DNA of 64,000 nucleotides, taken from positions 3,402,001-3,466,000 of the forward strand of contig NZ_CP041614.1 in NCBI RefSeq assembly GCF_007197555.1. Direction: 5' to 3'. A program made the position numbers and the translations under genes. Source of the DNA: Shewanella psychropiezotolerans. GTDB taxonomy: Bacteria > Pseudomonadota > Gammaproteobacteria > Enterobacterales > Shewanellaceae. The notes beneath the pieces are model-generated. The model made no database searches. It saw only the letters and a program-made list of their open reading frames with translations, and was not told where the DNA came from. This document shows positions 20,213 through 63,908 of this stretch, in pieces (within the stretch, counting starts at the first letter, position 1; each line of letters starts with the position of its first letter).

Positions 20213-22039
20213 ATGCACGCAGTTGTACAATCTGTAACCGATAGGATTATCGAACGCAGTAAAGTGTCACGGGCTAAATACCTGGCGGCGCTCAATGAAG
20301 CAAAACAAAATGGTGTCCATCGTAGCTCGTTGAGCTGTGGTAACTTAGCCCATGGATTTGCAGCCTGTAAGCCAGATGATAAGCAATCAATTAAAGGCTT
20401 AACTAAGGCTAACATAGGCATAGTTACGTCATTTAATGACATGCTCTCGGCTCACCAGCCCTATGAAACCTACCCGGACCTATTGAAGCAAGCTTGCGCC
20501 GAAGTTGGTAGCGTGGCTCAGGTCGCAGCCGGCGTGCCAGCCATGTGTGACGGTGTGACTCAAGGCCAGCCCGGTATGGAGCTCAGTCTTCTCAGCCGCG
20601 AAGTGATTGCCATGTCTACTGCGATAGGCCTGTCGCATAACATGTTCGATGGTGCCTTGTTACTCGGTATATGTGACAAAATCGTACCTGGCTTATTGAT
20701 CGGCGCGCTCAGTTTCGGTCATCTACCTATGTTATTCGTGCCAGCCGGCCCGATGAAATCGGGTATCCCCAATAAAGAGAAGGCGCGTATTCGGCAGAAG
20801 TTTGCTCAAGGGCTCGTCGATAGAGCGGCGCTGCTTGAAGCTGAATCGGCCTCTTACCACAGTGCCGGTACTTGTACTTTCTATGGCACGGCTAACAGTA
20901 ACCAGTTGATGCTCGAAGTCATGGGACTGCAGCTACCTGGCTCATCGTTTGTTAATCCAGACGACCCATTAAGAGAAGTGTTAAGCAAGACAGCTGCTAA
21001 GCAAGTTTGTCGTCTGACTGAGATGGGCACGCAATACACACCTATCGGTGAGATTGTAAATGAGAAATCCATCGTGAACGGTATAGTTGCGCTACTGGCG
21101 ACAGGCGGTTCGACTAACTTGACCATGCATATTGTTGCCGCGGCTCGTGCTGCCGGCGTCATCATTAACTGGGATGATTTCTCAGAGTTATCAGACGCTG
21201 TGCCACTCGTTGCTCGTGTGTATCCAAATGGTCATGCTGACATCAACCATTTCCACGCCGCCGGCGGTATGGCTTTCTTAATAAAAGAGCTACTCGATGC
21301 CGGGATGCTCCATGAAGATGTCGACACTGTTGCCGGTCATGGACTTCGTCGTTATACCCAAGAGCCTAGATTATTTGATGGTGAAATCAAGTGGGTAGAA
21401 GGTCAAGTCACCAGTCTGGACACAGAGGTATTGACTTCGGTCGATCAACCTTTCCAGGCCAACGGTGGTTTGAAGCTACTCAAAGGTAATTTGGGCCGAG
21501 CTGTTATCAAGGTGTCTGCTGTATCTGAGCAACATAGAGTTGTCGAGGCGCCGGCCGTTGTTATCGATGATCAAAATAAGCTCGAAGCCATCTTTAAAGC
21601 AGGCGATCTTGACAAAGACTGTGTTGTTGTCGTTAAGGGCCAGGGCCCTAAGGCTGTCGGTATGCCTGAGTTACATAAGCTCACTCCAATACTTGGCACA
21701 CTTCAAGACCGTGGCTTTAAGGTCGCTCTGTTGACCGATGGTCGTATGTCCGGTGCCTCAGGGAAAGTCCCAGCAGCCATTCATCTTACGCCAGAAGCGC
21801 TCGATGGTGGCTTGATTGCCAAGGTGCAATCCGGTGACATGATCCGTGTCGATGCGTTAACTGGCGAGCTCATTCTATTAGTCACTGACGCCGAGTTAGC
21901 GACGCGCGTGGCGGAAAAAGTGGAGCTTCGTAAAACGAATTACGGTATGGGCCGAGAATTATTCGGTGCATTAAGATCAAATTTAAGTAGTCCTGAAACG
22001 GGTGCTCGCTGCACCAGTGCCATCGATGAAATCTATTAA
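20213..22039 (+). CDS. edd: 6-phosphogluconate dehydratase
   Basis: This 608-residue IlvD/Edd-family iron-sulfur dehydratase forms 2-keto-3-deoxy-6-phosphogluconate. It shows [48 protein letters not shown] and [19 protein letters not shown]. The cysteines in MCDG, ICDK and GTCTFYGT provide the cluster ligands of the family. It is the third gene of the operon. Confidence 0.96.
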
Positions 22040-22053
22040 AGGAAGAGTAAAGA

Positions 22054-22695
22054 ATGCCTGAGAATAACTGGTCATTACAACCACAAGATATTTTTAAACG
22101 CAGCCCTATTGTTCCTGTCATGGTGATCAATAAGATAGAAGATGCAGTTCCCTTGGCTAAGGCGCTCGTTGCCGGTGGGATCAGTGTGCTGGAAGTGACC
22201 TTACGTACGCCTTGTGCGCTAGAAGCTATCACAAAAATTGCTAAAGAAGTTCCTGATGCACTTGTCGGTGCGGGCACTATCTTAAATGAAGAACAACTAC
22301 AGCAAGCTGTCGATGCCGGTGCCCAATTTGTTATCACACCCGGTGCGACACCTAGCTTACTTAAAGCGGCAATGGCGGGGAGTATCCCTTTAATACCGGG
22401 CGTTGCCAGTATTTCTGAAGTGATGGTGGGTATGTCACTTGGTTATACCAATTTCAAGTTTTTCCCAGCCGAAGCATCGGGCGGAGTCAATGCCCTCAAG
22501 GCCTTCTCTGGTCCACTTGCAGATATTCGTTTCTGCCCGACAGGTGGGATCACACCGAGCAGTTACCGTGATTACCTAGCGCTTAAGAATGTTGATTGTA
22601 TCGGTGGCAGCTGGATAGCACCGACGGATGCGATGGAGCAGGGGGATTGGGCTCGTATTACCGAACTCTGTAAAGAAGCCATTAGCGGTATATAA
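22054..22695 (+). CDS. eda: KDPG aldolase
   Basis: This 213-residue class I aldolase cleaves 2-keto-3-deoxy-6-phosphogluconate to pyruvate and glyceraldehyde 3-phosphate. The Schiff-base lysine is in [12 protein letters not shown], and the general base Glu is in [15 protein letters not shown] precedes the ATG. It ends the operon, and a strong terminator follows about 90 bp downstream. Confidence 0.96.
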
Positions 22696-22781
22696 AGCCT
22701 AGCTAGATAATAAGCCACTAATGGGTGGCTTATAGCAGGAATAAGGTAAAGACTCATTCCTGGAGTGTGATTTAATGATGT

Positions 22782-22809
22782 AAGGCTGCCTAATTGGCAG
22801 CCTTTTTTT
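22782..22809 (+). terminator. Rho-independent terminator of the Entner-Doudoroff operon
   Basis: A 9-bp stem AAGGCTGCC / GGCAGCCTT with a 5-base loop is followed by a run of T. Confidence 0.92.
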
Positions 22810-22882
22810 ATGCTTAAAGCTAATGAAACAGGCAAATTGTTCTGCTTCACAAATTAAAAGAAAAGAGGGCACATCTATATAC

Positions 22883-22927
22883 TTTGATGGTCAAACTATA
22901 TTAAAATTATTATGTTTGATAATCAAA
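22883..22927. promoter_or_regulatory. Paired TTTGA-N3-TCAAA palindromes before dmeF
   Basis: TTTGATGGTCAAA at 22883-22895 and TTTGATAATCAAA at 22915-22927 are two near-identical operators whose centres are 32 bp apart, about three helical turns. They resemble operators bound by MarR-family dimers, and a MarR gene lies two genes downstream. Otherwise the gap between eda and dmeF holds only the terminator. Confidence 0.5.
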
Positions 22928-23048
22928 GTAACTAGCCGGACACTCGATCTGTACAAGTTAACACCAGAACGGTTGTTGCATGCTGGATGAGTCGTTTGCT
23001 ATCGACCCGGTTATTTACATTTAATTTTCCATCTGGTTAAGGTTTAAG

Positions 23049-24020
23049 ATGAATAAAATAAGTCATGCTTCAGAAAAATGGCAACACACACACAACTTTG
23101 CTTCGGTCAGTGATGCCGGAGAGCGTAATACCCGATATGTGCTCTACTTGACAGTTGTGACCATGATCGTCGAAATCGCCGCAGGAACCGTTTATGGTTC
23201 GATGGCATTACTGGCCGATGGCTGGCATATGGGCACCCATGCAGCCGCATTCATGATCACGCTTTTTGCTTATCATTACGCAAGAAAACATGCTAATAAC
23301 CCAGCATTTTCCTTTGGCACGGGAAAAGTCAGTGTGTTAGGTGGATTTACCAGCGCCATTGCTTTAGGGCTAGTGGCGATCATCATGTTGGTTGAATCTG
23401 TCATGCGGGTTTTCAGTCCACATCAGATTCATTTTAACGAAGCTATCATGGTGGCCATTATTGGGCTTACCGTGAATGTGATCAGTGTTTTCTTATTAAA
23501 GGACCATCATACACATGATCATGGGCATGCCCATTCCCATAGTCACAGCGCAGAGGATGCCCATGAACATACTCAGACGCATGACCATAATTTAAAGGCC
23601 GCGTATTTTCATGTGCTGGCGGATGCATTGACGTCGATACTCGCCATCGGCGCCCTATTACTGGGTAAATTTTATGGATTAAACTGGCTTGATCCTATCA
23701 TGGGGATTGTCGGCTCGATTATCATCACCAGGTGGGCCTGGCAGTTATTAAAACAAACGGCGCCGATACTCTTAGATGCGAGTATTGAAACTGACTATAA
23801 ACAGGAGATAGTCCTGGCTATCGAGTCTGATACTCAAGATAAAATTTCGGATATCCATGTATGGCGAATAAGCGCCGATCACTATGCTGCAGAAATTGCC
23901 ATAGTAACAACAGCGCCCAAAGATATCGCTTTTTACAAAGGTAAATTGAGTCAGTTTACCCGTCTTAATCATTTGACCATTGAAGTTAATACCTCACATC
24001 AGGCAAAATGTAGCGGGTAA
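23049..24020 (+). CDS. dmeF: CDF-family metal efflux protein (DmeF-like)
   Basis: This 323-residue inner-membrane cation diffusion facilitator has about six membrane segments. The metal site residues appear as LLADGWHMGTHA in the second helix and FHVLADALTSI in the fifth. A His-rich cytoplasmic loop (DHHTHDHGHAHSHSHS) lies between helices four and five. DmeF proteins export cobalt and nickel by proton exchange. It is followed by a MarR regulator gene, with paired palindromes in front. Zinc specificity cannot be excluded. Confidence 0.85.
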   Translation: MNKISHASEKWQHTHNFASVSDAGERNTRYVLYLTVVTMIVEIAAGTVYGSMALLADGWHMGTHAAAFMITLFAYHYARKHANNPAFSFGTGKVSVLGGFTSAIALGLVAIIMLVESVMRVFSPHQIHFNEAIMVAIIGLTVNVISVFLLKDHHTHDHGHAHSHSHSAEDAHEHTQTHDHNLKAAYFHVLADALTSILAIGALLLGKFYGLNWLDPIMGIVGSIIITRWAWQLLKQTAPILLDASIETDYKQEIVLAIESDTQDKISDIHVWRISADHYAAEIAIVTTAPKDIAFYKGKLSQFTRLNHLTIEVNTSHQAKCSG

Positions 24021-24090
24021 AGTTAATATGTGCTTATGGCTGTTTGCCATAAGCACATACATCTCGCAGCGATCATATTAAGAGAAGCAA

Positions 24091-24510
24091 ATGAAGTCTA
24101 CTGAAGATCAGTTAAATCATGTCATGGTTGAATTTTATGAGAAACTTTCTTCATGGGAGCAAGCCGTGGTGAAAGATAATGGCTACAGTCTGCCACAGAT
24201 CCACACGGTAGAGATCTTAGGTGGACATGGTCCTATGAGGATGAAGGAACTGGCAGAGAAAATAGGGGTAACCACAGGTACACTGACGGTACAAATAGAT
24301 AAGATGGTTAAATCTGATCTGGTGACTCGTATGCCCCACGAGTCAGATAGACGCTCGATTTTAGTTGCACTCACCCAAAAAGGACAAGCGCTGTATCGAG
24401 AGCATGATGCTTTACATCTGCAACTTACGGGAGAGCTTACGGCTGAATTTTCTGATGCAGAGAGAGTACAGTTGCTGAGCTTTATGAAACGTATCAATGC
24501 CGAATTTTAG
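24091..24510 (+). CDS. MarR-family transcriptional regulator
   Basis: This 139-residue winged-helix protein has MRMKELAEKIGVTTGTLTVQIDKMVKSDLVTRMPHESDRRSILVALTQKG, the MarR recognition helix and wing with the DxR(R) motif. It follows dmeF by 70 bp and probably belongs to the same unit, acting on the palindromes at 22883-22927. Its ligand is unknown; a metal or oxidant is likely given the neighbour. It is the last intact gene before the insertion-sequence-rich island. Confidence 0.8.
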   Translation: MKSTEDQLNHVMVEFYEKLSSWEQAVVKDNGYSLPQIHTVEILGGHGPMRMKELAEKIGVTTGTLTVQIDKMVKSDLVTRMPHESDRRSILVALTQKGQALYREHDALHLQLTGELTAEFSDAERVQLLSFMKRINAEF

Positions 24511-24530
24511 TTCTGTGTCCCTTACTAGAT

Positions 24531-25380
24531 GGCGTTGTTGCAAAAACAGATTATAGTGGTGAATATACTCGTTTACTTCCTAGAGTAGTTACACCATGAG
24601 CAACCCTGAATTTAAATGAAAACATTTTGCTGCTGAGTGCTCCTTTGGTCTGTTGGTTGGCATGGCTCCACTCCAATGAGTTATGCCAACCTCAGTGACA
24701 TGTTATCAGAGCGAGGAATATCCGTGCATCGCACGACACTCTATCGCTGGTTCATCGAATATAGCCCAGCACTATGTAGAAGCCCTGTCGGTATCTGTTT
24801 ATCCAAAAGACTCATCAAGGCAACTTGATGAATCCTACGCCAAAGTGAAAGGCCAATGGTTTTACCTGTACCGCGCCATTAATAAGCAAGGTGAAACCTT
24901 GGATTTTTACTTTTCCAAAAACGAAAGAAACACGCTGCTTATCGGTTTCTTAAACGTTGCTTGAAGCTTTACACACTTGATAAGCAACTTAACACGCTAA
25001 ATACAGACAAACATTCCTCTTATGCTAATGCCATTGAACGACTAAAAAAGGAGGAAGGTTTACGAGGTGATGTTAAGCAACGGTAAGTAAAGTCACTCAA
25101 TAATGGTATTGAATCAGATCATGCTCCTATAAAAAAGCTAATAGGCGTACAGGTGGCTTTGAAGTGCACAATCGCGCTTGGTCAAGCATTCAAGATTTTG
25201 AGTCATTACGAATGCTAAATAAAGGCCTGTTTGATTTTTTGCTGCGAGGTGACAAATTATTCCGTGGTGCGGGAGAGATCCGATTTTATGAATAGGTTAT
25301 TCAATGTTGAGGTTATTTACACATCGTTAGCCGGAAATAACAGGTGAAATCGGCCTCCTAATCTTATTTGCAACACCCCC
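24531..25380 (+). mobile_element. Decayed IS6-family element
   Basis: The ends GGCGTTGTTGCAAA at 24531-24544 and TTTGCAACACC at 25367-25377 are inverted and of IS6/IS26 type. Between them an IS6 transposase can be followed through several frames: SYANLSDMLSERGISVHRTTLYRWF, LDESYAKVKGQWFYLYRAINKQGETLDFYFS, NTDKHSSYANAIERL, NNGIESDHAPIKKL and SLRMLNKGLFDFLLRGD. Multiple frameshifts and stops make it inactive. It marks the left edge of the isonitrile/PKS island. Confidence 0.85.
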
Positions 25381-25501
25381 GGTTAAAGCATCTTTCGCTG
25401 CATAAGTTGTGCGGTAAGTTCACCACACTCCTGCTCATGGACTTCATATCCAACAATTTTACGGCTGTAAATATCTTCAAACATATACAGATAATAAAAC
25501 T
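25381..25501 (-). mobile_element. IS3-family transposase fragment
   Basis: On the minus strand this reads FYYLYMFEDIYSRKIVGYEVHEQE followed by CGELTAQLMQRKML, a piece of the IS3 OrfB integrase core. It is cut off by the IS6 end on one side and by a small palindrome-ended element on the other. Confidence 0.75.
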
Positions 25502-25629
25502 GGCATGGTTCAAAAATAGTAGTTTTGAGTGAACACTTTATGAAAGTAAAAAATGGTTGTAGCTATGACTCAGTCTAGGTTTTTACCATTTATTGAATTG
25601 AAAACTGTTCACTTTATCTGAACCATGCC
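25502..25629. repeat. 128-bp MITE-like element
   Basis: Perfect 11-bp terminal inverted repeats GGCATGGTTCA / TGAACCATGCC enclose 106 bp without coding capacity. Subterminal GTGAACA and CTGTTCAC motifs also face each other. It lies just after the isonitrile synthase stop codon and interrupts an IS3 fragment. The parental transposase is not in this window. Confidence 0.6.
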
Positions 25630-25642
25630 GATTTAAGGACGT

Positions 25643-26704
25643 TTACCTTACAACAGAGCCAGTTGTGCTCTGAGATCTAGAATACGGTGTTTGTGGGTCG
25701 GTGACGGAGGAAGGAGGGGTCTCAAAATGACTGGGGTGCCCGTTGTCGTAGACCAATATGAATGAACGCTTTACGGCCTCCGCTTTAGGCATCAGACGGA
25801 ATTGACCTTTTTCTTTTACCAGCACAGCATGCCAGGGTGTGGTCCATTGATCGTCTTTTGAAATCAGGTAAATCCCGATTTTCTCTGACACCAACTCCTG
25901 TGGATGAATAGAAAGACGCAGTGCAAATGGTAGGTGTTTTTGGAGTAACCGACTCCATGCATTACTTCTCTGAATTACCCGATAGGCGGTGAGTCGAGCC
26001 ATTTTATGTAAGGCGGTCCGGCTGAGATGGGACAACTTGTCGATGCCAGAAAAATCTTCCAGCATGAACCGTGTTATCCCAAGATACATGGTGGAGGCTT
26101 GTCTTTCTTCTTTGATATGCTTTCTCAAGGACTGGAGTGTTTCCCCAAACTCGATCATCATCTCTTCCCGCAAGGAATCATAGGCGCCGATTTTGGTGAA
26201 TACATCTTCGAGGTTGAAGAAATCAAAATAGTCCGGGTAATGGTGCATGGCATAGCGGCGGAGTTCGTGGACATAGTCGGACACATGTTCATCTTTGACA
26301 TGAATAATATCTGCGAACACACGGCCATCCGAACAAATGATGACTTTTGCGCCTGGCGCGTAGATGTTCTCAATCTCCTGACACAGGCCGACCAGATTTT
26401 CGAGTGCCAAAAACTCACCTTTGTCCGGTAGATGACTCATCGTCTTATTACGATTAGGTGATTTGGCCGGAAAAGCGGGCAATACCATCACAATCGGCTG
26501 CTGGTTATCGACAAAGGTCTGGACTTTCTCAAGATGGGGCGCAATTTGCGCTTCAAATTTCACGGGTTCCTGATTGGGTAGTAAACGTCGCTGCTCTAAA
26601 ATCAGGCGTAAGATACGGTGTGCAATATGCGCTGTGGATTCATTCACTGTTTCTTTACTGGCACTGTCACTTTTTGGTGCGTGTTTCATTGCTGTCTTAT
26701 TCAT
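25643..26704 (-). CDS. isnA: Isonitrile synthase, PvcA/IsnA (DIT1_PvcA) family
   Basis: This 353-residue protein matches the DIT1/PvcA family, which turns the amine of tyrosine or tryptophan into an isonitrile using ribulose 5-phosphate. The family core is visible: VMVLPAFPAKSPNRNKTMSHLPDKGE, EIENIYAPGAKVIICSDGRVFADII and DDQWTTPWHAVLV. It is the third gene of an overlapping operon; its ATG overlaps the stop of the monooxygenase gene by 8 bp. The amino-acid substrate cannot be read from the sequence. A MITE-like element and insertion-sequence debris follow immediately. Confidence 0.88.
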   Translation of the reverse strand: MNKTAMKHAPKSDSASKETVNESTAHIAHRILRLILEQRRLLPNQEPVKFEAQIAPHLEKVQTFVDNQQPIVMVLPAFPAKSPNRNKTMSHLPDKGEFLALENLVGLCQEIENIYAPGAKVIICSDGRVFADIIHVKDEHVSDYVHELRRYAMHHYPDYFDFFNLEDVFTKIGAYDSLREEMMIEFGETLQSLRKHIKEERQASTMYLGITRFMLEDFSGIDKLSHLSRTALHKMARLTAYRVIQRSNAWSRLLQKHLPFALRLSIHPQELVSEKIGIYLISKDDQWTTPWHAVLVKEKGQFRLMPKAEAVKRSFILVYDNGHPSHFETPPSSVTDPQTPYSRSQSTTGSVVR

Positions 26705-28193
26705 GATTTTGTCCTGTGATACTGGTAGCTTTGGCTGATACGGGGTGAAATGTAGTGGATAGCATTTGATGGATTAGTTGCTGTGCTTGCCCACTGGGAA
26801 CAAGTGCATGGATATAGGCATCCGGTCGAACGAGAATCGACTGGTCACGATAATAAATTTGTGTTGACCATAACTCAGCACCGGAATTTTCGGCGATCCG
26901 AAGCACTTTCACGTAAGGCGGGACCGTTAATTCAGTTTCATCATCACCAAAGATAAGCAGGGTGAATTTGCTGTAATCCAGAAGTGTATAGAGGCGGGTA
27001 GTGTGATGCCCTTGGTAAATTTCAAAGTCATAAATCCGGGTACCGTTCAGGCCTGCTTCTCCATAACGAACCCCCATACCGGTGATATTACCAGCTCGTT
27101 TTTCAATAATTTTGACGTAGTCCTGGGCATGGGTACCGGTTTCCGAGTATTTGGTGGAACGCACCAGTTCCCCTGAGCTTTCAATTACGCTCATTGCGAC
27201 AGGCTGGCGCTCATCCTCATAGCTTTGTAACAGGCTGAGGGGGGCGCCATGTTGAATCACCATGTTGAGTTTCCACATCAGATTGAAAGCATCAGCAAGC
27301 CCGGTATTCATGCCTTGGCCCCCATTCACAGAATGGATATGGCAGGCATCGCCGGCAAGGAAAACACTATTCTGGATGAAGAACTGCTCTGCCACCGATT
27401 CTTTGACCGAGAACTGGGAGTACCAAACCATGTCCTTAAAGCGCAAGGTATGTGGATGCATGGCACGATTAATTTTCTCGATCGCTTCTTCCATGGTGAA
27501 ATTATTGGTATCCATCCGGACATAGAAACGGTCAATATTACCTTCCCTGGGGATCCAGGCCACATCGGAGGTTTCTGCCTGAAATACAATGATTTCTGGG
27601 ACTTTTTCAAAGTCTGTCTCTAAGACGCCATCCAAGACGGCCCACACAATTTGTGGCCGAACAATTTCAAAGGGGACCGCAAAGCGTTGACGGACATACG
27701 ATTGTGAGCCATCGGCGCCGATGATGTAGCTTGAGGTGATCACATCGCCATTAGTGAGAGTGGTTTTGCAGCCATGCTCTTTCAGTTCAATGGCTTCAAC
27801 AGCGGTTTGGCGAAGCACTCCGGCGTTGGCCTGAGTGAGGCGTTTGTCCAGCAATTGTTCGACGAAAGATTGTCCCAGCATCAGGAAATGTTTGTGGAAA
27901 CAGCCCTCAAGTACATCCCACCAGGCAGTTTGGCGTGAAACAAAGGCGCCATTTGCCCAGACTGAACTGGTATTGCAGGGTTTGCCTTGCGGGTAGAGCT
28001 CATCAAATGCATTGATCACTTCCATCAACTGAAGGGTTCGGGCATTGAGTGCATCAGCACGACCCACTTGCAAGGGTTCTGCGGACTTGTCGAGAACCAG
28101 AGTATTTAAACCGCATTGCTGACCTAGATAAGCCAACAGTAACCCGACGGGACCGGCACCGATGATTAAAATATCTGTGGTTTTATGATTCAT
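26697..28193 (-). CDS. FAD-dependent aromatic monooxygenase (PHBH class)
   Basis: This 498-residue group A flavin monooxygenase shows the FAD dinucleotide motif ILIIGAGPVGLLLAYLG, the DG motif IGADGSQSYVR (about residue 150) and the GD motif VFLAGDACHIHSVNGGQGMNTGLADAFNL, with a thioredoxin-like C-terminal domain as in the phenol hydroxylase/PheA-TfdB subfamily. It probably hydroxylates an aromatic ring or an oxidised isonitrile intermediate. Its start overlaps the stop of the upstream oxygenase gene as ATGA, so translation is coupled. Classical pvc clusters use a different flavoprotein type (PvcC), so this enzyme is unusual here. Confidence 0.85.
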   Translation of the reverse strand: MNHKTTDILIIGAGPVGLLLAYLGQQCGLNTLVLDKSAEPLQVGRADALNARTLQLMEVINAFDELYPQGKPCNTSSVWANGAFVSRQTAWWDVLEGCFHKHFLMLGQSFVEQLLDKRLTQANAGVLRQTAVEAIELKEHGCKTTLTNGDVITSSYIIGADGSQSYVRQRFAVPFEIVRPQIVWAVLDGVLETDFEKVPEIIVFQAETSDVAWIPREGNIDRFYVRMDTNNFTMEEAIEKINRAMHPHTLRFKDMVWYSQFSVKESVAEQFFIQNSVFLAGDACHIHSVNGGQGMNTGLADAFNLMWKLNMVIQHGAPLSLLQSYEDERQPVAMSVIESSGELVRSTKYSETGTHAQDYVKIIEKRAGNITGMGVRYGEAGLNGTRIYDFEIYQGHHTTRLYTLLDYSKFTLLIFGDDETELTVPPYVKVLRIAENSGAELWSTQIYYRDQSILVRPDAYIHALVPSGQAQQLIHQMLSTTFHPVSAKATSITGQNHE

Positions 28194-29026
28194 TGGTAAG
28201 ACTCTAGGTTGGGGTTTTCAAAAACAGGGTTGGCATTGATATGCACGCGTCGTAAGTGACGCGGGGTATTGGAAGTAAATGCTTCACGGCCATGAAGCAG
28301 GTTGAAATTATCCGAGATGACCAAATCCCCGGTTTGCCATTCATGCGCGTAAAAACATCGGGGGTCATAGAGTGAAGCACGCAAGCTGGCATGAAATTCT
28401 TGCGATTCTGTCTCTGTAATGCCGGAAAATGCCATATTCGATGGGTTGATAAAAACGCCTTTCTCTTCAAGATGAGGCTCGTTGTAGCGAATCACCGCAT
28501 GATTGAGATAGGGGTGTTGAGTAATGATTAGCGAGGTTGTCCGGCTATTATAGAATGCCATCTCTCGTTCATAGGTTGCCGTGATTTTTTCCCAGAGTGC
28601 AATCTCGGTTTCACTGGCATATTCAAGGGCCAGTACGGTATGAGAGAAAGTGGTCCGACCGCCATGGCCTGTTTCTGGGGCCGACACACACTGGAAAATC
28701 TGGTATTCAGGCACTTGTGGACGATACATCCCATCCCAGTGCATCGGCATATAGTTGTTGTCAAAAATATGATCGTCTGGTTTATCTTGCTGCACAAGCT
28801 CAAGGACCTTGCCAAACGGCCAGATACTGATATCTCCCCACTGCTCACAATAAGTGGCGAGATCATCATTGGTGGCAAAACTGTCAAAGCCTCTGAGCAA
28901 GACAAGCTGATGTATTTTGAACAAGGCGCGAAGGGCTTCAATATCGATGATTTGAACCGAAGCAGGTTGAGCGATGGGTTCAACCATGACGCCAAATGGG
29001 TCTAAACGTGTTATGTTATAGTGCAT
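28190..29026 (-). CDS. isnB: TauD-type Fe(II)/2-oxoglutarate oxygenase, PvcB/IsnB-like
   Basis: This 278-residue TauD/TfdA-fold oxygenase has the metal-binding motif H-W-D in NYMPMHWDGMYRPQVPEYQIF and the distal His in NFNLLHGREAFTSN, with the 2-oxoglutarate-binding Arg downstream (PRHLRRVHIN). In pvc/isn clusters PvcB/IsnB oxidises the isonitrile acid, often with decarboxylation, to a vinyl isonitrile or cyclised product. It is the first gene of the operon, with GGAG before the ATG. Recruitment into an isonitrile pathway is inferred from the synthase two genes downstream. Confidence 0.83.
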   Translation of the reverse strand: MHYNITRLDPFGVMVEPIAQPASVQIIDIEALRALFKIHQLVLLRGFDSFATNDDLATYCEQWGDISIWPFGKVLELVQQDKPDDHIFDNNYMPMHWDGMYRPQVPEYQIFQCVSAPETGHGGRTTFSHTVLALEYASETEIALWEKITATYEREMAFYNSRTTSLIITQHPYLNHAVIRYNEPHLEEKGVFINPSNMAFSGITETESQEFHASLRASLYDPRCFYAHEWQTGDLVISDNFNLLHGREAFTSNTPRHLRRVHINANPVFENPNLESYQ

Positions 29027-29688
29027 TGTTTAACGTTCTCCGACTGTACTGGCCAAGTATAACCAGACACTTTTAAAAGGGAATTTTCATAGCTAACAGG
29101 TGATTTATCTCCGTTAGCGGTGTGTAACCTTTCAACGTTGTAATACTTCATATAACTAGTCACATTTATGCTTCATATGCGCTCTAGTTGGCTGAGCTAC
29201 TTTAAATATCTAATCATGCTTCAAAAAACTTCCAAAGAATCGTTCTACCACAGCATTGACACTTCTATGTCAACACCCGTTGAGAATTAGCTAGAACTCG
29301 GCATATAATCGGAAATAACTCTCTGACAATATATCGTTTAAAACATCGCTGAATTTCTTTAACCGTTAGTCCTTCTGTTGTTCGCTCTTTTCTGAATTAT
29401 ATTTTAACCTTAATGATTGACGATCATTTTCCTTATTAAAGTGGTCCGGTTTCATTAGACTAGTACAGGCATAACAGTGTTAACGATTTCATCCTCACGT
29501 TTTTCTATTAAAAGAATAAAGTCAATGATTTAACCTGTGGCGACAAGTTTGTTGTATTTTAGGTAACGTAATACTCTTAAATTAGTAACATTAACTTTAA
29601 TGTGCCCGTTCATCTGGTGGAAATGTTTAATTCTATTAAGGTACTATTAAAAAGTATCCACAAATCTTTGTTATAACGTCATCTAAAG
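29027..29688 (-). mobile_element. Decayed IS3-family remnant and unassigned AT-rich DNA
   Basis: On the minus strand from about 29290 to 29044, broken frames still read NAVVERFFGSF, LKHD, KVAQPTRAHMKHKCD, LYEVLQR and KFPF...KVSGYTWP, the C-terminal part of an IS3 OrfB. From 29300 to 29688 I see only AT-rich sequence with stops in all frames. No promoter for the isonitrile operon was found with confidence beyond its GGAG ribosome binding site. Confidence 0.6.
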
Positions 29689-29980
29689 GTTTACCTGAAG
29701 TATGAAAGTAGTTTGTTTTGTTTTTAAATCCAACAATATTTACATTGGCAATATGAAGGTAGGGGGTATTGTAAATAATATTAGGAGGCCTGTTCCATCT
29801 GTTGTTCCCAGCTAACTATGTGTAAAACACCTAGTTTACCTGAAGTATGAAAGTAGTTTGTTTTGTTTTTAAATCTAACAACATTTACATTAATAATATA
29901 AAGGTGGGGGTTGTTGTAAATAATGTTAGCAGGCCGATTTCGCCTGTTGTTTCCGGCTAACTATGTGTAAATCACCTCAA
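29689..29980. repeat. 145-bp direct duplication containing an IS6 end
   Basis: The sequence starting GTTTACCTGAAGTATGAAAG at 29689 recurs at 29834, giving two diverged 145-bp copies. Each has about 70 bp of unknown flank followed by the right end of an IS6 element (AGGAGGCCTGTT...). The second copy continues into a longer IS6 remnant. The divergence between copies shows the duplication is old. Confidence 0.8.
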
Positions 29981-30478
29981 CATTGAATAACCTATTCATA
30001 AAATCTGATTTCTCCCTCACCAGGGAATAATTTTGTCACTTCGTAGAAAAAATAAAACTGACCTTTATTTAACATTCGTAATGACTCAAAACCTTGAATG
30101 CTTGACCAAGCGCGATTGTGCACTCTAAAGCCCCCTGTAGCGCCTATTATATTTTTTATGGGAGCATGTTCTCAATACCATTATTGAGTGACTTTACTTG
30201 CCGTTGCTTAACATCACCTCGTAAACGTTCCCCCTTTTTTAAATCGTTCGATGGAATTAGTATAAGAGAAATGTTTGTCTGTATTTAGCGTGTTAGGTTG
30301 CTTATCAAGCGTGTAAAGCTTCAATCAACGTTTAAGAAACCGATAGGCTGAGTGTTTATTTTGTTTATTTTGTTTATTTGTAAAAATAAAATTTCAAGGT
30401 TTCACCTTGCTTATTAATGGTTCGGTACAGGTAAAACCATTGGTCTTTCACTTTGACGTAGGTTTCATCAAGTTGCTA
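29906..30478 (-). mobile_element. Truncated IS6-family remnant, minus strand
   Basis: Its reverse complement follows the transposase of the element at 24531-25380 from LDETYVKVKDQWFYLYR to the right-hand inverted repeat, with frameshifts and a small GTTTATTTT expansion near 30355. The first third of the element is missing. It faces the element at 24531, so the isonitrile operon lies between inverted IS6 copies. Confidence 0.8.
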
Positions 30479-30540
30479 GGATGAGTCTTGGCTGTCAGGC
30501 GAACACACAAAATGATATCCAAACATTCGGAGGTAATGCA

Positions 30541-30717
30541 ATGACAAACTCAATCGCAGTACACACGACTTCCACTACGGTAGTTGACAGCAACAAGACA
30601 CAAGCAGGCTCCAAAAAATCCGATATCCTCAAAAATTCATGTTGGGCCAAGGTTAAAATTTCACATTGCTCAGCATTATTGAAATGTCACAATAATTTAC
30701 AAAAAGACAATCCTTAA
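30541..30717 (+). CDS. Small peptide of 58 residues, unknown
   Basis: A strong Shine-Dalgarno (GGAGGT at 30529-30534) precedes this ATG by six bases. The product begins MTNSIAVHTTSTTVVDSNKT and ends with a Cys- and Lys-rich tail (CWAKVKISHCSALLKC...). It has no signal peptide and no family I recognise. It stands between an IS6 remnant and the type III polyketide synthase, in the same orientation as the latter. It could be a free peptide, a peptide precursor, or the surviving 5' end of a lost gene. Confidence 0.45.
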   Translation: MTNSIAVHTTSTTVVDSNKTQAGSKKSDILKNSCWAKVKISHCSALLKCHNNLQKDNP

Positions 30718-30736
30718 AACTCTAAAGTAAAAGGGA

Positions 30737-30809
30737 TTCCATAATGAAAACACTATGGACTTTAAATGGTTAATTAATACATTTTGTACTAATTAACCAT
30801 TCTATGGAA
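30737..30809 (+). promoter_or_regulatory. Possible leader peptide and alternating hairpins before the PKS gene
   Basis: AAGGGA at 30731 precedes a ten-codon ORF at 30744-30773 reading MKTLWTLNG. Its stop lies in a perfect 12-bp hairpin (AATGGTTAATTA at 30765-30776 with TAATTAACCATT at 30790-30801). TTCCATA at 30737-30743 can pair either with TATGGA at 30754-30759 or with TATGGAA at 30803-30809, so two structures exclude each other. This looks like an attenuation or translational-control leader; no T-run terminator follows. The remaining gap to the PKS start holds no gene. Confidence 0.4.
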
Positions 30810-30974
30810 CGCTCGATATAATTGTATCACTATGTGCATCTCGGCTGAAGGAGGGGATGGTTGCTCGAATGTGTTGTTTTTAAATTAGCTGGTTTTTAAT
30901 TTACGATCGATGAAAGTTTAATTGATTTAAACCTGTCTTGTTGTAACAGTATAAATAATAAGGTAGATTTTGTT

Positions 30975-32018
30975 ATGACGATTTTATGTGAACCCATGGT
31001 GTATTACCCAGAGCATGTAATAACAAATGAAGATACTATTTTCTTTTTGGATGAACTACATCCGGACACGCCAAATAAAGAAAAAGCCTTTCGAATGATT
31101 AGAAATTCAACCATAGAAAAAAGACATTTAATACTCCCATTAGATAAAACTATTGAATTGGGTGATTTTGGTGAAAGAGCCACTATCTACAGCGAAGAAG
31201 CACGAAAGCAATCCACATTAGTCTCACAGCAAGCAATTAAAAAGTCAGGGGCAGCTACTAAAGATATTTCAATGGTTATAGTGACCTCATGCACAGGTTT
31301 TATGATGCCATCTTTAACTGCACATTTGATTAATTCTCTTAAATTATCTAACAGTACGATTCAACTGCCAATCGCACAGATGGGATGTGCTGCAGGTGCC
31401 TCAGCCATTAATAGAGCCTATGAACATTGCCAACAGAATTCTAGCAACAATGTTCTTATAGTTGCATTAGAAACAGCATCCTTGTGTTTCCACCGCGAAG
31501 CCAACAGACTTCAAGATTTTATTACTAATTCGTTATTTGGAGATGGCGTCGCTGCAGTAGTCATGAAAGGGGATGATAATGGTAGTGGCTTTAAATTATC
31601 AAATACCCAAAGTCATTTTATGAATAACTCTGAGGAATACATCACGTATTCTATAACCAGCAATGGATTTCATTTTTCATTAGATAAAGATGTTATGCAT
31701 TCAATTAGTAAAGTTGCACCTAAAATAGTTCAGTTTATCGAAGACTCTTTTGATAAGAAGCCTCATGAGCTGGATTCATACATTTTTCATACTGGCGGTA
31801 AAAGAATTTTGGATGAAGTAGAACGTTGTTTATCTCTTAACTCTAGTAGTCTTGATAATTCAAGAAACTGTTTACGTGATACTGGTAACACATCAAGTGT
31901 TGCTGTAATTGATGTATTAAAAAGGCATTTTAAGCAAAGAAAAGTTGGAGGTTTAGGGGTTTTAGTCGCCTTTGGCCCTGGGTTTACCACTGAAATGTCT
32001 GCAGGTGAATGGGTTTAG
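30975..32018 (+). CDS. Type III polyketide synthase (chalcone synthase-like)
   Basis: This 347-residue homodimer-type enzyme keeps the full catalytic triad: Cys138 in LPIAQMGCAAGASAI, His272 in YIFHTGGKRIL and Asn305 in LRDTGNTSSVAV, plus the C-terminal GPGFTTE loop. Such enzymes condense a CoA starter with malonyl-CoA units to pyrones or phloroglucinol/resorcinol-type phenols. Length and motifs indicate an active enzyme. AAGGTAG precedes the ATG. Base composition is visibly lower in GC than the flanking core genes, and IS6 remnants lie on both sides, which suggests transfer. Starter unit and product cannot be predicted. Confidence 0.92.
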   Translation: MTILCEPMVYYPEHVITNEDTIFFLDELHPDTPNKEKAFRMIRNSTIEKRHLILPLDKTIELGDFGERATIYSEEARKQSTLVSQQAIKKSGAATKDISMVIVTSCTGFMMPSLTAHLINSLKLSNSTIQLPIAQMGCAAGASAINRAYEHCQQNSSNNVLIVALETASLCFHREANRLQDFITNSLFGDGVAAVVMKGDDNGSGFKLSNTQSHFMNNSEEYITYSITSNGFHFSLDKDVMHSISKVAPKIVQFIEDSFDKKPHELDSYIFHTGGKRILDEVERCLSLNSSSLDNSRNCLRDTGNTSSVAVIDVLKRHFKQRKVGGLGVLVAFGPGFTTEMSAGEWV

Positions 32019-32177
32019 GTGTTGCTTAGACTATTTTGTACAGCATTTGAATGCTGCTGGCCCTCCGTCAGCTGAAATTCACGATACTCAATTATGGTAG
32101 ATTAGGGAGGAGACCATCTCATCATAATATTACGAACGGGTGCCTAGAAAGACAGCAGATATAATTCCTACGCCCCT

Positions 32178-32211
32178 AACTCTTTACAATATGCACATTA
32201 TGTAAAGAGTT
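32178..32211 (+). terminator. Stem-loop downstream of the PKS gene
   Basis: A perfect 11-bp inverted repeat (AACTCTTTACA / TGTAAAGAGTT) with a 12-base loop lies 160 bp after the stop codon. No T-run follows, so termination is uncertain. Confidence 0.45.
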
Positions 32212-32242
32212 GGCCTATTTGGGTCTGAAGTGGCATAGTGAA

Positions 32243-32388
32243 TTTTGGCTGCGAGGTGACAAAAATTATTCCTTGGTGCGGGAGAGATCCGATTTTATGA
32301 ATAGGTTATTCAATGTTGAGGTGATTTATACATAGTTAGCCGGAAACAACAGGCGAAATCGGCCTCCTAATATTATTTGCAACACCCC
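32243..32388 (+). mobile_element. IS6-family right-end remnant
   Basis: This 146-bp piece matches the 3' end of the element at 24531-25380 (TTTTGGCTGCGAGGTGAC... to TTTGCAACACC) and lies in the same orientation. It marks the right edge of the PKS segment. Confidence 0.82.
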
Positions 32389-32711
32389 TTGCTAGACACT
32401 GTCACTGCTCGTTAAGTTAAAACTCCTCCGCTTCTTAGTGGACAGTGTTATTTATATGTACACACATTTTTTTCACAACGCTAGAGCTAAACTTAGTTAT
32501 TGTTTTAGCTTAGTGTCGATGCCCTTATCTCGACGAGACCTAAAGCAGTGATCCACTTCAATACACTTGGGGTTGGATGTTATTTTTGTTGTGGTTCAGC
32601 TTGGAGCGGCCTTGATAGCTAGCTCCAATGACTTGCACAAAGTATTAGGGCTGCATAAGCATTAGGTTTGCAATTTTTATGAACTGCATGCTTGTTTTTA
32701 TCATCTAGTGA
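32389..32711. other. Gene-free gap with an inverted repeat
   Basis: ACACTGTC at 32396-32403 and GACAGTGT at 32441-32448 form an 8-bp inverted repeat around a 37-bp interior, probably another insertion-sequence end. From 32450 to 32711 nothing beyond the likely promoter area of the next gene was seen. Confidence 0.4.
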
Positions 32712-34355
32712 GTGAGAATCAGTGTGCTAACTCGTTTAAAAAATCCAACTGTCATCCAATTTACCCTATTTATCTCCATTTTCTATGTTGCTATTTTTAA
32801 CATTCCATTTTTTAGAATCGTACAAACCGGCATAGAAAAGCAAGGGGAAGTCGACCCTCTGTTCATTGCAACGATCCCTTTGTTTTTAATTTTCGCCTTG
32901 AGTTTTCTCTTCTCATTATTTAGCGTTAAATATCTGCTAAAGCCGTTCTTTATTGGCATCACCTTGCTCTCCTCCAGCGTCTTTTTCGCGGCGCTGCAAT
33001 ATAGTGTCGTGTTCGATTATGGGATGATTGAAAACACGGTGCAGACCAATTCTGCCGAGGCATTTACCTATATTAATTTCTCCTCTGTGGTCAACTTCTT
33101 GTTAACGGGTCTATTGCCTTCCTACTTGATATTAAAACTGAACATCAGGTATAAACCTGTGTTAACGGAGCTATTGTACAAATTTGCATTCATGTTGTTA
33201 ATGCTGGTTGGAATAGGGGTCATAGGTTTCTTTTATTACCAAAATTATGTGTCTTTTGGTCGAAATAACGATGAGTTAAAACGTTTCATCATACCAACTT
33301 ATGTACTTGGCTCGATCGCTAAATATACTAATATTAACTATCTACAGACTCCACTCGAGTATAAGCAGATTGGGTTAGATGCGGTTAACGAGACTCAAGA
33401 CACTAACAAGAAACCTAACCTTGTGGTGATGGTTCTAGGCGAAACGGCCAGATCGATGAACTATGAATATTATGGTTATGATAAACCCACTAACACGTAC
33501 ACAAAGCCGTACGATATGACAGCATTTATGAATACAACGTCGTGTGGGACGGCTACCGCAGTTTCTGTGCCTTGTATGTTTTCTAATATGACCCGCAAAG
33601 ACTATGATAGCCGGGAAGCCAAGGCGCAAGACGGTGTCATGGATGTATTACAGCATGGTGGCATACAGCTGCTTTGGCTCGATAATGACAGTGGTTGTAA
33701 AGGGGTATGTGATAGGGTGCCACATCTGATGGTGAAGCTAGACAGCGATCCTAAGCTTTGTAATGGGCAATTCTGTTTGGATCAGGTGCTGTTGAATGAG
33801 TTGGATAAAGCACTGGCAGAGCTTAAGCACAAGGATTCTTTGTTGGTATTACATATCATAGGCTCTCATGGGCCGACATATTATTTACGCTATCCAGAGG
33901 AACACAGAAAGTTCATTCCGGATTGCCAAAGAAGTGATATCCAAAATTGCAGTGATGAAGAATTGATGAACACCTATGATAATACCATTGTTTATACCGA
34001 CTATATTGTTGCTCAAGTCGTCGAGAGGCTCATCTCTGAGCAAGAAAGATTTGATACTGGGATGATCTATGTGTCGGACCATGGGGAATCTTTGGGTGAA
34101 AAAGGCATGTACCTCCATGGCGCACCTTATGCTATCGCTCCAGACGAGCAGATACAGATCCCTATGTTGACCTGGTTTTCTGATGACTTTGCCTCTGAAA
34201 ATAGCTTAGACCTGACATGTCTCAAGGCCAAGGCTCGAGTCGGTGGCTTTTCTCATGACAATATTTTTGATTCTTTACTCGGAATAATGAATGTAAAATC
34301 AGAAATATACGACAAAAAATTGGACATCTTCAGCTCATGTAGGCTGCCTAAATAA
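32712..34355 (+). CDS. eptA: Phosphoethanolamine-lipid A transferase, EptA family
   Basis: This 547-residue inner-membrane enzyme has five N-terminal membrane segments and a periplasmic alkaline-phosphatase-fold domain. The nucleophile Thr is in VMVLGETARSMNYEYYGY; zinc ligands appear in YVSDHGESLGE and HGAPYAIAP; paired cysteines (SCGTATAVSVPC, CKGVC, CNGQFC) fit the family's disulfides. It transfers phosphoethanolamine to lipid A and lowers susceptibility to cationic peptides. Start is GTG at 32712 or GTG at 32724, neither with a strong ribosome binding site. It is related to MCR proteins, but no mobilisation of this gene is shown. Confidence 0.92.
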   Translation: MRISVLTRLKNPTVIQFTLFISIFYVAIFNIPFFRIVQTGIEKQGEVDPLFIATIPLFLIFALSFLFSLFSVKYLLKPFFIGITLLSSSVFFAALQYSVVFDYGMIENTVQTNSAEAFTYINFSSVVNFLLTGLLPSYLILKLNIRYKPVLTELLYKFAFMLLMLVGIGVIGFFYYQNYVSFGRNNDELKRFIIPTYVLGSIAKYTNINYLQTPLEYKQIGLDAVNETQDTNKKPNLVVMVLGETARSMNYEYYGYDKPTNTYTKPYDMTAFMNTTSCGTATAVSVPCMFSNMTRKDYDSREAKAQDGVMDVLQHGGIQLLWLDNDSGCKGVCDRVPHLMVKLDSDPKLCNGQFCLDQVLLNELDKALAELKHKDSLLVLHIIGSHGPTYYLRYPEEHRKFIPDCQRSDIQNCSDEELMNTYDNTIVYTDYIVAQVVERLISEQERFDTGMIYVSDHGESLGEKGMYLHGAPYAIAPDEQIQIPMLTWFSDDFASENSLDLTCLKAKARVGGFSHDNIFDSLLGIMNVKSEIYDKKLDIFSSCRLPK

Positions 34356-34368
34356 GTAAATAGTTAAC

Positions 34369-34396
34369 AAAAGGGGATGGCAACATCCTCTTTTTT
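34369..34396 (+). terminator. Rho-independent terminator after eptA
   Basis: An 11-bp stem AAAAGGGGATG / CATCCTCTTTT (one G-T pair) with loop GCAA continues into a run of T. Confidence 0.88.
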
Positions 34397-34500
34397 GTTT
34401 ATTGTTAGTAATTAAGTCTTACTCAATTGTGAACGGATCCTCTGTGCTAATGAGATCCACATAAAATTCTACTAACAATTATTCACAGGGCGGTGGAAGC

Positions 34501-35532
34501 ATGAACTTAGCGAAGCACCTGACAGATACAGAACTGTCTGCCAAAATTCTTAGGCATGCAGTGCCTAAAATGTCTGAACTCAATATTCCCGTCACACCTG
34601 TTAATTATGCTGTTTGGTATGAATATTATCTCGGTATTAATTTAGATCTTAAACGTGCCATCGATGGCCTTATCTCAAATGGAATCACTTTTTGTACGGA
34701 AGTGAATGATGGGCTTCACAAGAATTTCATTCAAGAAAAATCAGCAGAAGTGATTGAGAATGTTCAAATTGAAACTCAGATAATCATCAATGCTTTACTC
34801 AGTAAAGTCAGTAGGTTGACTCAAGGTACAGACAGTTTTTCCGACACCTTATCTGACTTCAGCCAAGAGCTAAAACAAAAGCCCGATGTTGAAGTTCTTA
34901 ACACCTTGGTAAATCGCTTAGTCGATAATATACAAGGTGTGATTTTAAGTAATAAACAGATACAAGGGAGCTTAAACATCATGCGTGATGAGGTGAGCTC
35001 GTTAAAAAGCGAGATGGAAAATCTAAATCAGGTTGCCATGACAGATCAACTCACATCACTTAACAATCGGCGTAGCTTCGAGGATGAGGTGATGAAACAC
35101 ATGCAAGCATATACTCAAGCTCAGTCTCCAAGTTGTTTGCTCTTAATCGATATCGATCATTTTAAACTGTTTAATGACACCCATGGTCACTTAGTTGGGG
35201 ATAAAGTGCTTGCCTATGTGGCATTAGCGCTGAAACAAGCGGTGAAAGGGACTGATTTTGTTGCCCGATATGGAGGCGAAGAGTTTGTTATCTTGCTACC
35301 TAATACACGTCTAACAGACGCATTGATAGTGGCAGAGCAGTTACGTAAAGTGATATCAGAACGCAAATTAACCATAGGTAAGGATAAGAAATTATCTTTG
35401 GGCTCCATTACCGTTTCTTTGGGAGTATCGACTCTCAATATCAGTGACGATCGTGAAAGCTATTTTGTCAGGGCCGATGAAGCCCTGTATCGTGCCAAGT
35501 CGTCGGGAAGGAACTGTGTTTGTAGCGAATAA
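34501..35532 (+). CDS. Diguanylate cyclase (GGEEF)
   Basis: This 343-residue soluble protein has an N-terminal helical region (1-170, including a coiled-coil-like SLNIMRDEVSSLKSEMENLNQ) and a C-terminal GGDEF domain. The active-site motif is ARYGGEEFVILLP with the metal pair in LLIDIDHFKLFND, so it should make cyclic di-GMP. The inhibitory site position reads KGTD where RxxD is usual, which suggests weaker product inhibition. GGCGG/GGAAG lies before the ATG. The N-terminal part resembles sensor regions of Shewanella and Vibrio cyclases but is not a named domain to me. Confidence 0.9.
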   Translation: MNLAKHLTDTELSAKILRHAVPKMSELNIPVTPVNYAVWYEYYLGINLDLKRAIDGLISNGITFCTEVNDGLHKNFIQEKSAEVIENVQIETQIIINALLSKVSRLTQGTDSFSDTLSDFSQELKQKPDVEVLNTLVNRLVDNIQGVILSNKQIQGSLNIMRDEVSSLKSEMENLNQVAMTDQLTSLNNRRSFEDEVMKHMQAYTQAQSPSCLLLIDIDHFKLFNDTHGHLVGDKVLAYVALALKQAVKGTDFVARYGGEEFVILLPNTRLTDALIVAEQLRKVISERKLTIGKDKKLSLGSITVSLGVSTLNISDDRESYFVRADEALYRAKSSGRNCVCSE

Positions 35533-35539
35533 TACTGGA

Positions 35540-35571
35540 AGATATCAGGTTTAAAAGCGAACCTGATATCT
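35540..35571. terminator. Bidirectional stem-loop between the cyclase and acetyltransferase genes
   Basis: A perfect 12-bp stem (AGATATCAGGTT / AACCTGATATCT) with an 8-base loop lies between convergent genes. No long T-run, so strength is uncertain. Confidence 0.6.
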
Positions 35572-35580
35572 GATGCTTGA

Positions 35581-50295: not shown

Positions 50296-50380
50296 GGAGG
50301 GGTTCCCGAGTGGCCAAAGGGATCAGACTGTAAATCTGACGGCTCAGCCTTCGAAGGTTCGAATCCTTCTCCCTCCACCA
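50296..50380 (+). tRNA. tRNA-Tyr (GTA), array copy 1
   Basis: An 85-nt class II tRNA with GTA anticodon and encoded CCA. Together with its spacer it is the inverted partner of the copy at 5303-5387. The 46 bp between it and the urea transporter start hold no clear promoter: a TATTAT lies only six bases before the tRNA. Confidence 0.97.
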
Positions 50381-50411
50381 TTTGCGCTAAAGAAATAAAA
50401 TAAAGATATCC

Positions 50412-50496
50412 GGAGGGGTTCCCGAGTGGCCAAAGGGATCAGACTGTAAATCTGACGGCTCAGCCTTCGAAGGTTCGAATCCTTCTCCCTCCACCA
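50412..50496 (+). tRNA. tRNA-Tyr (GTA), array copy 2
   Basis: Identical to copy 1, after a 31-bp spacer. Confidence 0.97.
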
Positions 50497-50590
50497 TCTT
50501 TGTTTAGTGACTTTAGACCTGTGAAAGCTAATATTATTTCCAGCTGTGATCACTCACACTAGAATGATATTCGTGAAAGAATAAAAATGT

Positions 50591-50675
50591 GGAGGGGTTC
50601 CCGAGTGGCCAAAGGGATCAGACTGTAAATCTGACGGCTCAGCCTTCGAAGGTTCGAATCCTTCTCCCTCCACCA
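50591..50675 (+). tRNA. tRNA-Tyr (GTA), array copy 3
   Basis: Identical to copies 1 and 2, after a 94-bp spacer that resembles the spacer before copy 4 (both end in AATGATAT...AAAAATGT). Confidence 0.97.
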
Positions 50676-50771
50676 TCTTTATTCAGTTAGTTTGGACGTG
50701 TATAAAGCTAATGTTTTGTCCTGCAGTGATGGCTCGCTGTAGAATGATATTTAGTCAGAAGAGAAAAATGT

Positions 50772-50856
50772 GGAGGGGTTCCCGAGTGGCCAAAGGGATC
50801 AGACTGTAAATCTGACGGCTCAGCCTTCGAAGGTTCGAATCCTTCTCCCTCCACCA
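50772..50856 (+). tRNA. tRNA-Tyr (GTA), array copy 4
   Basis: Identical to the other copies, after a 96-bp spacer. A T-rich run (CTTCTCTC) follows but no terminator stem was found. Confidence 0.97.
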
Positions 50857-57546: not shown

Positions 57547-57622
57547 TCCCCTGTAGTTCAGTTGGTAGAACGGCGGACTGTTAATCCGTATGTCACTGGT
57601 TCGAGTCCAGTCCGGGGAGCCA
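57547..57622 (+). tRNA. tRNA-Asn (GTT), copy 1
   Basis: A 76-nt tRNA with anticodon GTT (loop CTGTTAA) and encoded CCA. The acceptor stem TCCCCTG / CCGGGGA leaves a T-C mismatch at position 6-67. Confidence 0.97.
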
Positions 57623-57667
57623 AAGTTACCTAAATTGAAGACGTTCAGAATGATGTGTTAAAAGTAT

Positions 57668-57743
57668 TCCCCTGTAGTTCAGTTGGTAGAACGGCGGACT
57701 GTTAATCCGTATGTCACTGGTTCGAGTCCAGTCTGGGGAGCCA
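57668..57743 (+). tRNA. tRNA-Asn (GTT), copy 2
   Basis: Like copy 1 except C to T at position 67, giving a T-T mismatch with position 6. Confidence 0.97.
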
Positions 57744-57777
57744 TTTTTAATAGATATCTGAGTTGAATGAAAACGTT

Positions 57778-57853
57778 TCCCCTGTAGTTCAGTTGGTAGA
57801 ACGGCGGACTGTTAATCCGTATGTCACTGGTTCGAGTCCAGTCCGGGGAGCCA
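57778..57853 (+). tRNA. tRNA-Asn (GTT), copy 3
   Basis: Identical to copy 1; the preceding bases AAACGTT repeat those before copy 1. Confidence 0.97.
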
Positions 57854-57881
57854 TTTATTCAAGAAAATTATTTAAAGCGAT

Positions 57882-63905: not shown

Positions 63906-63908
63906 TTG

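Follow-up and report, generated by a model that had tools for sequence, protein, structure and literature searches.

An IS6-bounded island of Shewanella psychropiezotolerans holds an isonitrile operon and a type III polyketide synthase that are probably separate modules

In this report we analyse an island at positions 24531-32388 of a 64,000-nucleotide window, meaning the whole stretch of DNA that was studied, which is part of the 6.45-Mb single-contig genome of Shewanella psychropiezotolerans. Bounded by remnants of IS6-family insertion sequences (IS), the island comprises, on the minus strand, an operon of three genes with open frames, related to known isonitrile pathways, and, on the plus strand, one gene for a type III polyketide synthase (PKS). 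We consider that these are two functionally separate modules, an isonitrile operon of the composition pvcB-FAD-pvcA (FAD denoting a flavin adenine dinucleotide-type monooxygenase) and a solitary type III PKS, and we give this reading a probability of roughly 0.65. The operon and the PKS gene point away from each other, their starts separated by 1.95 kb that consists mostly of IS debris, and the third-position GC content (GC3) of the two modules is unequal (0.48-0.50 vs 0.27). The four genes are as follows.

28190..29026, minus strand: pvcB-like iron/2-oxoglutarate (Fe/2OG) oxygenase of 278 amino acids, first operon gene (PF02668; aligned to the solved structures 3eat and 7tcl)
26697..28193, minus strand: PHBH-type FAD monooxygenase of 498 amino acids, second operon gene (PF01494, NF005531)
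25643..26704, minus strand: pvcA-like isonitrile synthase of 353 amino acids, third operon gene (PF05141; solved relatives 3e59 and 9dhm)
30975..32018, plus strand: type III PKS of 347 amino acids, near PhlD (PF00195, PF02797; C138, H272, N305 and C106 conserved)

Genes and predicted chemistry of the isonitrile operon

The operon is transcribed in the order pvcB-like gene, FAD monooxygenase gene and pvcA-like gene, successive genes overlapping by 4 and 8 nt. The Pfam matches of the proteins exceed the curated cut-offs by a wide margin. The PvcA frame is intact, aligns to 3e59 and matches PF05141 (DIT1_PvcA) with 279 bits against a cut-off of 26.4, and it stays below the NCBIfam equivalog (236 bits against a cut-off of 600). 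The FAD monooxygenase reaches 873 bits with NF005531, above the cut-off of 530, and the solved structures that it matches best are those of VibO and phenol 2-monooxygenase. The PvcB-like protein matches the TauD family PF02668 with 174 bits, and among solved structures it aligns to PvcB (3eat) with an E value of 8.5e-86 and to PIsnB (7tcl) with 2.7e-72. According to PMC9467999, enzymes that form vinyl isonitriles carry Lys or Arg at position 107 and Asn or His at position 188 (PIsnB numbering), whereas those that form isocyanoacrylates carry Leu and Cys at the same positions. In our alignment the window protein has Arg at the position of PIsnB K107 and Asn at that of N188, and the Leu and Cys of the paerucumarin (PvcB) type are not present at these positions.

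Since the Fe/2OG enzyme has both residues that forecast a vinyl isonitrile of the rhabduscin type, the likeliest product of the operon would be a vinyl isonitrile phenol that bears an extra hydroxyl group on its ring. If expressed, PvcA would convert tyrosine (possibly tryptophan) into an isonitrile amino acid, which the Fe/2OG enzyme would desaturate with loss of CO2 to yield a vinyl isonitrile, and the PHBH-type flavoenzyme would then hydroxylate the phenol ring, most simply giving 4-(2-isocyanovinyl)catechol. Neither such a ring-hydroxylated isonitrile nor the related Vibrio operons described below were found in the literature searched.

A conserved PvcB-FAD pair with a synthase of another kind

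For the FAD monooxygenase 120 homologues were listed, scored from the 7999 best candidates; apart from the protein itself they share 64-71% identity with it and include entries named Vibrio cholerae and Legionella. The FAD gene was found in one of 126 Shewanella genomes and in one of 369 genomes of the class, in both cases the genome studied here, and in 9 of 227 Vibrio genomes. At all nine Vibrio loci a PvcB homologue adjoins the FAD gene in the same order as in the window, and a protein of 580-623 amino acids with a PvcA part comes next, with an extra frame intervening at three loci (L172, L173 and L174). Three of these nine proteins were scanned and each gave a match to both DIT1_PvcA and TauD, one of the TauD matches lying just below the cut-off. 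The pair is also present on a plasmid of Burkholderia stagnalis (L179), where the order is PvcA, PvcB, FAD and the PvcA is stand-alone, so that it is kept at 10 other loci (nine Vibrio and one Burkholderia plasmid).

Eight Vibrio PvcB proteins share 59-64% identity with the PvcB of the window, and the Burkholderia one shares 56%; for the window FAD monooxygenase the values are 63-73% with six Vibrio homologues and 68% with the Burkholderia one. The window PvcA shares only 28-32% identity with the corresponding part of six Vibrio fusions and only 39% with the stand-alone PvcA of the B. stagnalis plasmid. It is closest to an unplaced protein encoded on a 3.2-kb contig (85%), followed by proteins of Pseudoalteromonas (66%), another Shewanella (genome G087, 65%) and Aliikangiella (61%). 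Because PvcB and the FAD monooxygenase are close to their Vibrio partners and PvcA is distant from the Vibrio fusions, the operon joins a Vibrio-type PvcB-FAD pair to a stand-alone-type PvcA of another kind. The PvcB-like proteins beside PvcA in G087 and in genome G410 are 36% and 30% identical to that of the window, and no FAD homologue was present in the 15-16 kb read around these two PvcA genes. Homologues of PvcA/PvcB or isnAB exist in V. cholerae according to two of four papers (PMC5126622, PMC3639982, PMC6386379, PMC10420840), and PMC5126622 describes Legionella isnAB as always accompanied by a helix-turn-helix protein and a P450.

Some features of these relatives deserve mention in their own right. 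In G087 (L154:1522-10293) PvcA and the PvcB-like gene lie near a tryptophan-halogenase-like flavoprotein, an MMPL-type transporter, a LolA-like protein and a TauE-like exporter. In G410 (L155:5408-11280) they adjoin two enoyl-CoA hydratases and a gene resembling 3-hydroxy-3-methylglutaryl-CoA (HMG-CoA) synthase, neighbours which suggest an isonitrile inside a larger polyketide-type cluster. The Shewanella genome G114 and a Pseudomonas (L156, L163) each encode a stand-alone PvcA as well as a PvcA-TauD fusion, the two being separated by one gene. In Vibrio genome G912 (L177) the PvcB-FAD pair is decaying, PvcB being split and FAD containing in-frame stops. Inspected by eye, the TauD halves of two Vibrio fusions (L162:8764-10611 and L175:6098-7969) are without the Asp of the iron-binding motif, which we take to be HxD, and for this reason the TauD half of these fusions may have lost catalysis.

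A solitary PhlD-like type III polyketide synthase

Seven listed homologues, of which the named ones are from Vibrio and Pseudoalteromonas, share 62-65% identity with the PKS, and PhlD of Pseudomonas fluorescens shares 49% over the full length. The Cys-His-Asn triad of the PKS (C138, H272 and N305) is invariant in 30 aligned rows. In a tree of 36 chosen rows the PKS falls within a clade of 15 with support of 100/100, whose named members are Vibrio, Pseudoalteromonas and Enterovibrio; this clade stands apart from the Pseudomonas PhlD and Streptomyces rows, and the PKS is not inside the Pseudomonas PhlD clade. The solitary enzyme would most likely condense malonyl-CoA into phloroglucinol or a related pyrone. 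The best NCBIfam model was that of DpgA, reached with 139 bits against a cut-off of 425, and a DpgA-like assignment was set aside in favour of the PhlD neighbourhood.

Within 129 Shewanella genomes, PKS matches outside the genome studied here all score 31 bits or less. No single neighbour of the PKS is constant in the neighbourhood rows printed. Three broad single-linkage families (F1, F2 and F28) recur near it, either across Vibrio and Pseudoalteromonas or within several Pseudoalteromonas, for the most part at a distance of kilobases. On a conjugative plasmid of Photobacterium a PKS homologue follows an alpha/beta hydrolase gene, with no isonitrile module beside it and IS3 genes 4 kb away. 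This Vibrio/Pseudoalteromonas clade of PhlD-like synthases lies mostly without recognisable partner genes, and we know of no tested product for it.

The two modules are not linked elsewhere

The sequence-only reading had proposed that the two modules may make one product, and the surveys of other genomes leave this without support. None of 80 related PKS loci, fetched with flanks of up to 10 kb (shorter at contig ends), encodes PvcA or PvcB in its flanks; a remote flavoprotein match occurs at four Streptomyces loci among them. Among the 44 genomes that bear the nearest PKS loci, 41 have no PvcA match, and the other three are one Pseudomonas and two Vibrio penaeicida, whose match is the fusion encoded in the FAD operon. 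Conversely, 13 other genomes give a PvcA match (in G095 it covers 56 residues only), and none of them has this PKS, six showing FabH-like matches of 32 bits or less. Homologous operons that never carry the PKS, or PKS homologues always found with other genes, had been named as evidence that would count against a joint product, and this is largely the picture obtained, no PKS match being seen in the 17-18 kb read at the nine Vibrio loci and the one Burkholderia plasmid locus of the PvcB-FAD pair. One plasmid record, Embleya sp. NBC_00896, is shared between the 13 plasmids that gave a PvcA match and the 20 that were listed out of 192 giving a PKS match; its two matching places are about 0.5 Mb apart. 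The sequence-only reading knew of no described pathway that combines these three enzymes with a type III PKS, and of four papers found that mention both isonitriles and type III polyketide synthases none describes one, judged by titles and the starts of abstracts.

Mobile DNA and surroundings of the island

Pfam and NCBIfam matches, together with genome matches of the IS6 copy, bear out the operon, the PKS and the three IS6 copies or ends that were first read from the letters. The mobile elements are listed below.

24522..24529, plus strand: TTACTAGA, left half of a possible 8-bp target duplication, matching 32389-32396 at 7/8 positions and abutting an IS6 end
24531..25380, plus strand: IS6-family copy of full length (850 bp) with broken transposase frame (PF13610 / NF033587 fragment)
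25386..25562, minus strand: IS3-type transposase debris (rve, E 7e-4, below the curated cut-off)
25497..25634, no strand: MITE-like imperfect inverted repeat with 24-nt arms, 79% complementary, and 90 nt between the arms
29029..29172, minus strand: IS3-type transposase debris (rve_2, E 3e-4, just below the curated cut-off)
29689..29977, no strand: 144-bp tandem duplication (87%) containing an IS6 right end
29762-29832: IS6 right-end remnant (82%)
29907..30489, minus strand: inverted, truncated IS6 copy, 87% identical to the copy at 24531-25380
32239..32388, plus strand: IS6 right end of 150 bp, 93% identical to the copy at 24531-25380
32389..32396, plus strand: TTGCTAGA, right half of the possible 8-bp target duplication, abutting an IS6 end

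The miniature inverted-repeat transposable element (MITE) proposed earlier is thus recognisable as an imperfect repeat, and the DNA described as rich in IS3 debris does hold rve and rve_2 fragments, both of them weak. Thirteen places in the genome match the 850-bp IS6 copy, four of them within the island, and the full 850 bp is spanned at 24531-25380 only, where the sole listed transposase frame is a 93-amino-acid fragment (24683-24964). Given the identities of 87% for the inverted copy and 93% for the right-hand end, the IS6 copies are not recent twins. The outer IS6 ends are in direct orientation. A near-repeat of 7/8 was reached by 2 of 110 tested pairs of end positions, both on one diagonal, against a chance expectation that we estimate at about 0.04 under equal base frequencies. 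The pattern TTRCTAGA occurs five times in the window against 4.6 expected, and since it is no commoner than expected the weight of the near-repeat lies in its position alone. A strict IS6 composite transposon was considered and is not shown, the right copy being only 150 bp long and the duplication 7/8. Of the joint or stepwise acquisition suggested before, acquisition in steps is plausible in view of the IS6 copies, the outer near-repeat, the unequal GC3 and the rarity of the modules in the genus.

Between 28950 and 32300, promoter-like sites number 14 against 13.5 in shuffled sequences, and terminator-like sites are somewhat more frequent, 5 against 2.0 (standard deviation 1.6). No RNA family reached its gathering cut-off in 22000-36000, and the short frame at 30490-30714 upstream of the PKS has no Pfam match. 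The island is flanked by a CDF transporter gene and a MarR-like gene (24091-24510) on one side, and on the other by an EptA-like phosphoethanolamine transferase gene (32712-34355) that directly follows it and whose nearest model is MCR-4, with 885 bits, well below the cut-off of 1225. Elsewhere in the window there are arrays of four tRNA-Tyr (50296-50856) and six tRNA-Asn (57547-58177), and AT skew is strong (0.35) at its end (63001-64000).

Alternative explanations

Several observations weigh against two separate modules with the chemistry predicted above. Among the 227 Vibrio genomes, nine hold the FAD gene, seven the PKS and four both (G859, G861, G1016 and G1048), against 0.28 expected (Fisher 3.9e-5, or 0.008 if G859, G861 and G1016, grouped by near-identical PvcB, are one lineage). 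The island has no transporter or resistance gene. The tunnel residues of the PKS are T/F/T, compared with M/H/L in PhlD, for which PMC6274091 reports that the changes M21I, H24V and L59M cut the use of lauroyl-CoA and not the formation of phloroglucinol. Finally, single changes at both diagnostic residues in another enzyme left its product unchanged according to PMC9467999, which makes the vinyl-isonitrile chemistry a forecast. A single pathway, in which the PKS and the isonitrile enzymes make one isonitrile-bearing phenolic or pyrone and have here been physically joined by IS6, would account for the Vibrio co-occurrence and for the sharing of one IS6-bounded stretch with a near-repeat at its ends. 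The co-occurrence that the sequence-only reading proposed to look for does exceed chance, but the modules lie apart in all four genomes, on separate contigs in two and at distances of 2.68 Mb and 0.34 Mb in the remaining two, and it is therefore an association of genomes, not of loci, which common descent, large genomes rich in genes or a tie in trans might each explain. As the PKS is also missing from five of the nine FAD-bearing Vibrio genomes, a PvcA match is missing from 41 of the 44 PKS genomes, and the genes are divergent with unequal GC3, we hold a single pathway to be highly improbable.

Least probable of all, in our estimate, is that the operon and the PKS cooperate in trans across genera towards a joint phenolic isonitrile, mobile DNA having juxtaposed them only here among the genomes seen, and that the operon is at the same time a hybrid, its PvcA-TauD fusion having been replaced by a stand-alone PvcA of foreign origin. 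A paerucumarin-type operon leading to an isonitrile coumarin is a quite unlikely alternative: PvcA and PvcB homologues with an adjacent flavin hydroxylase would fit it, and the top-scoring solved PvcB-like sequence is that of P. aeruginosa, but the two diagnostic positions carry PIsnB-type residues, a PHBH-type protein (PF01494) rather than PvcC serves as the third enzyme, and no PvcD was seen. PvcC is an HpaB-like enzyme. It is somewhat easier to imagine, if still unlikely, that the operon is intact in sequence and yet a silent passenger between IS remnants, and the PKS likewise, as IS6 and IS3 remnants lie on every side and promoter-like sites are at the level of shuffled sequence; the four open frames, conserved active-site residues and overlapping starts speak against this, while the listed IS6 transposase frame has become a fragment. 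We thus return to two functionally separate modules as the best explanation.

Significance and comparison with known systems

These results weaken the claimed hybrid pathway, the PKS lying elsewhere without the isonitrile operon, and they bring out PvcB and the PHBH-type flavoenzyme as a conserved pair whose accompanying isonitrile synthase varies. Because the pair is conserved, an uncharacterised hydroxylated vinyl isonitrile is predicted for the Vibrio-type operons too. According to PMC6386379 and PMC10420840, nanomolar concentrations of vinyl isonitriles such as rhabduscin and byelyankacin inhibit tyrosinase.

The isnA-isnB pathway to rhabduscin in Xenorhabdus and Photorhabdus (7tcl) resembles the window operon in its PvcA-type synthase and its Fe/2OG enzyme with vinyl-isonitrile residues, whereas the window, with the order pvcB-FAD-pvcA, has a PHBH-type flavoenzyme where the glycosyltransferase stands. 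No rhabduscin-type glycosyltransferase is among the listed frames of the island, the rest of the genome not having been searched for one; in Photorhabdus luminescens this gene lies elsewhere in the genome than the isn genes, as stated in PMC6386379. The Vibrio operons share a close, adjacent PvcB and FAD in the same order, and differ in that their third protein is a PvcA-TauD fusion in place of a stand-alone PvcA; to our knowledge their product has not been described. The Burkholderia stagnalis plasmid operon likewise has a stand-alone PvcA and a related PvcB and FAD, but in another order and with a distant PvcA. With pvcABCD of Pseudomonas aeruginosa, which makes paerucumarin, the window shares PvcA and PvcB homologues followed by ring hydroxylation, whereas the Pseudomonas system has isocyanoacrylate-type residues and other tailoring enzymes. 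The PKS keeps the catalytic triad and second cysteine of Pseudomonas PhlD at about half identity, but it belongs to a separate Vibrio/Pseudoalteromonas clade, differs in its tunnel residues and has no phl gene neighbours. The island is accordingly best read as a variant of a known isonitrile operon, beside a PKS of different composition.

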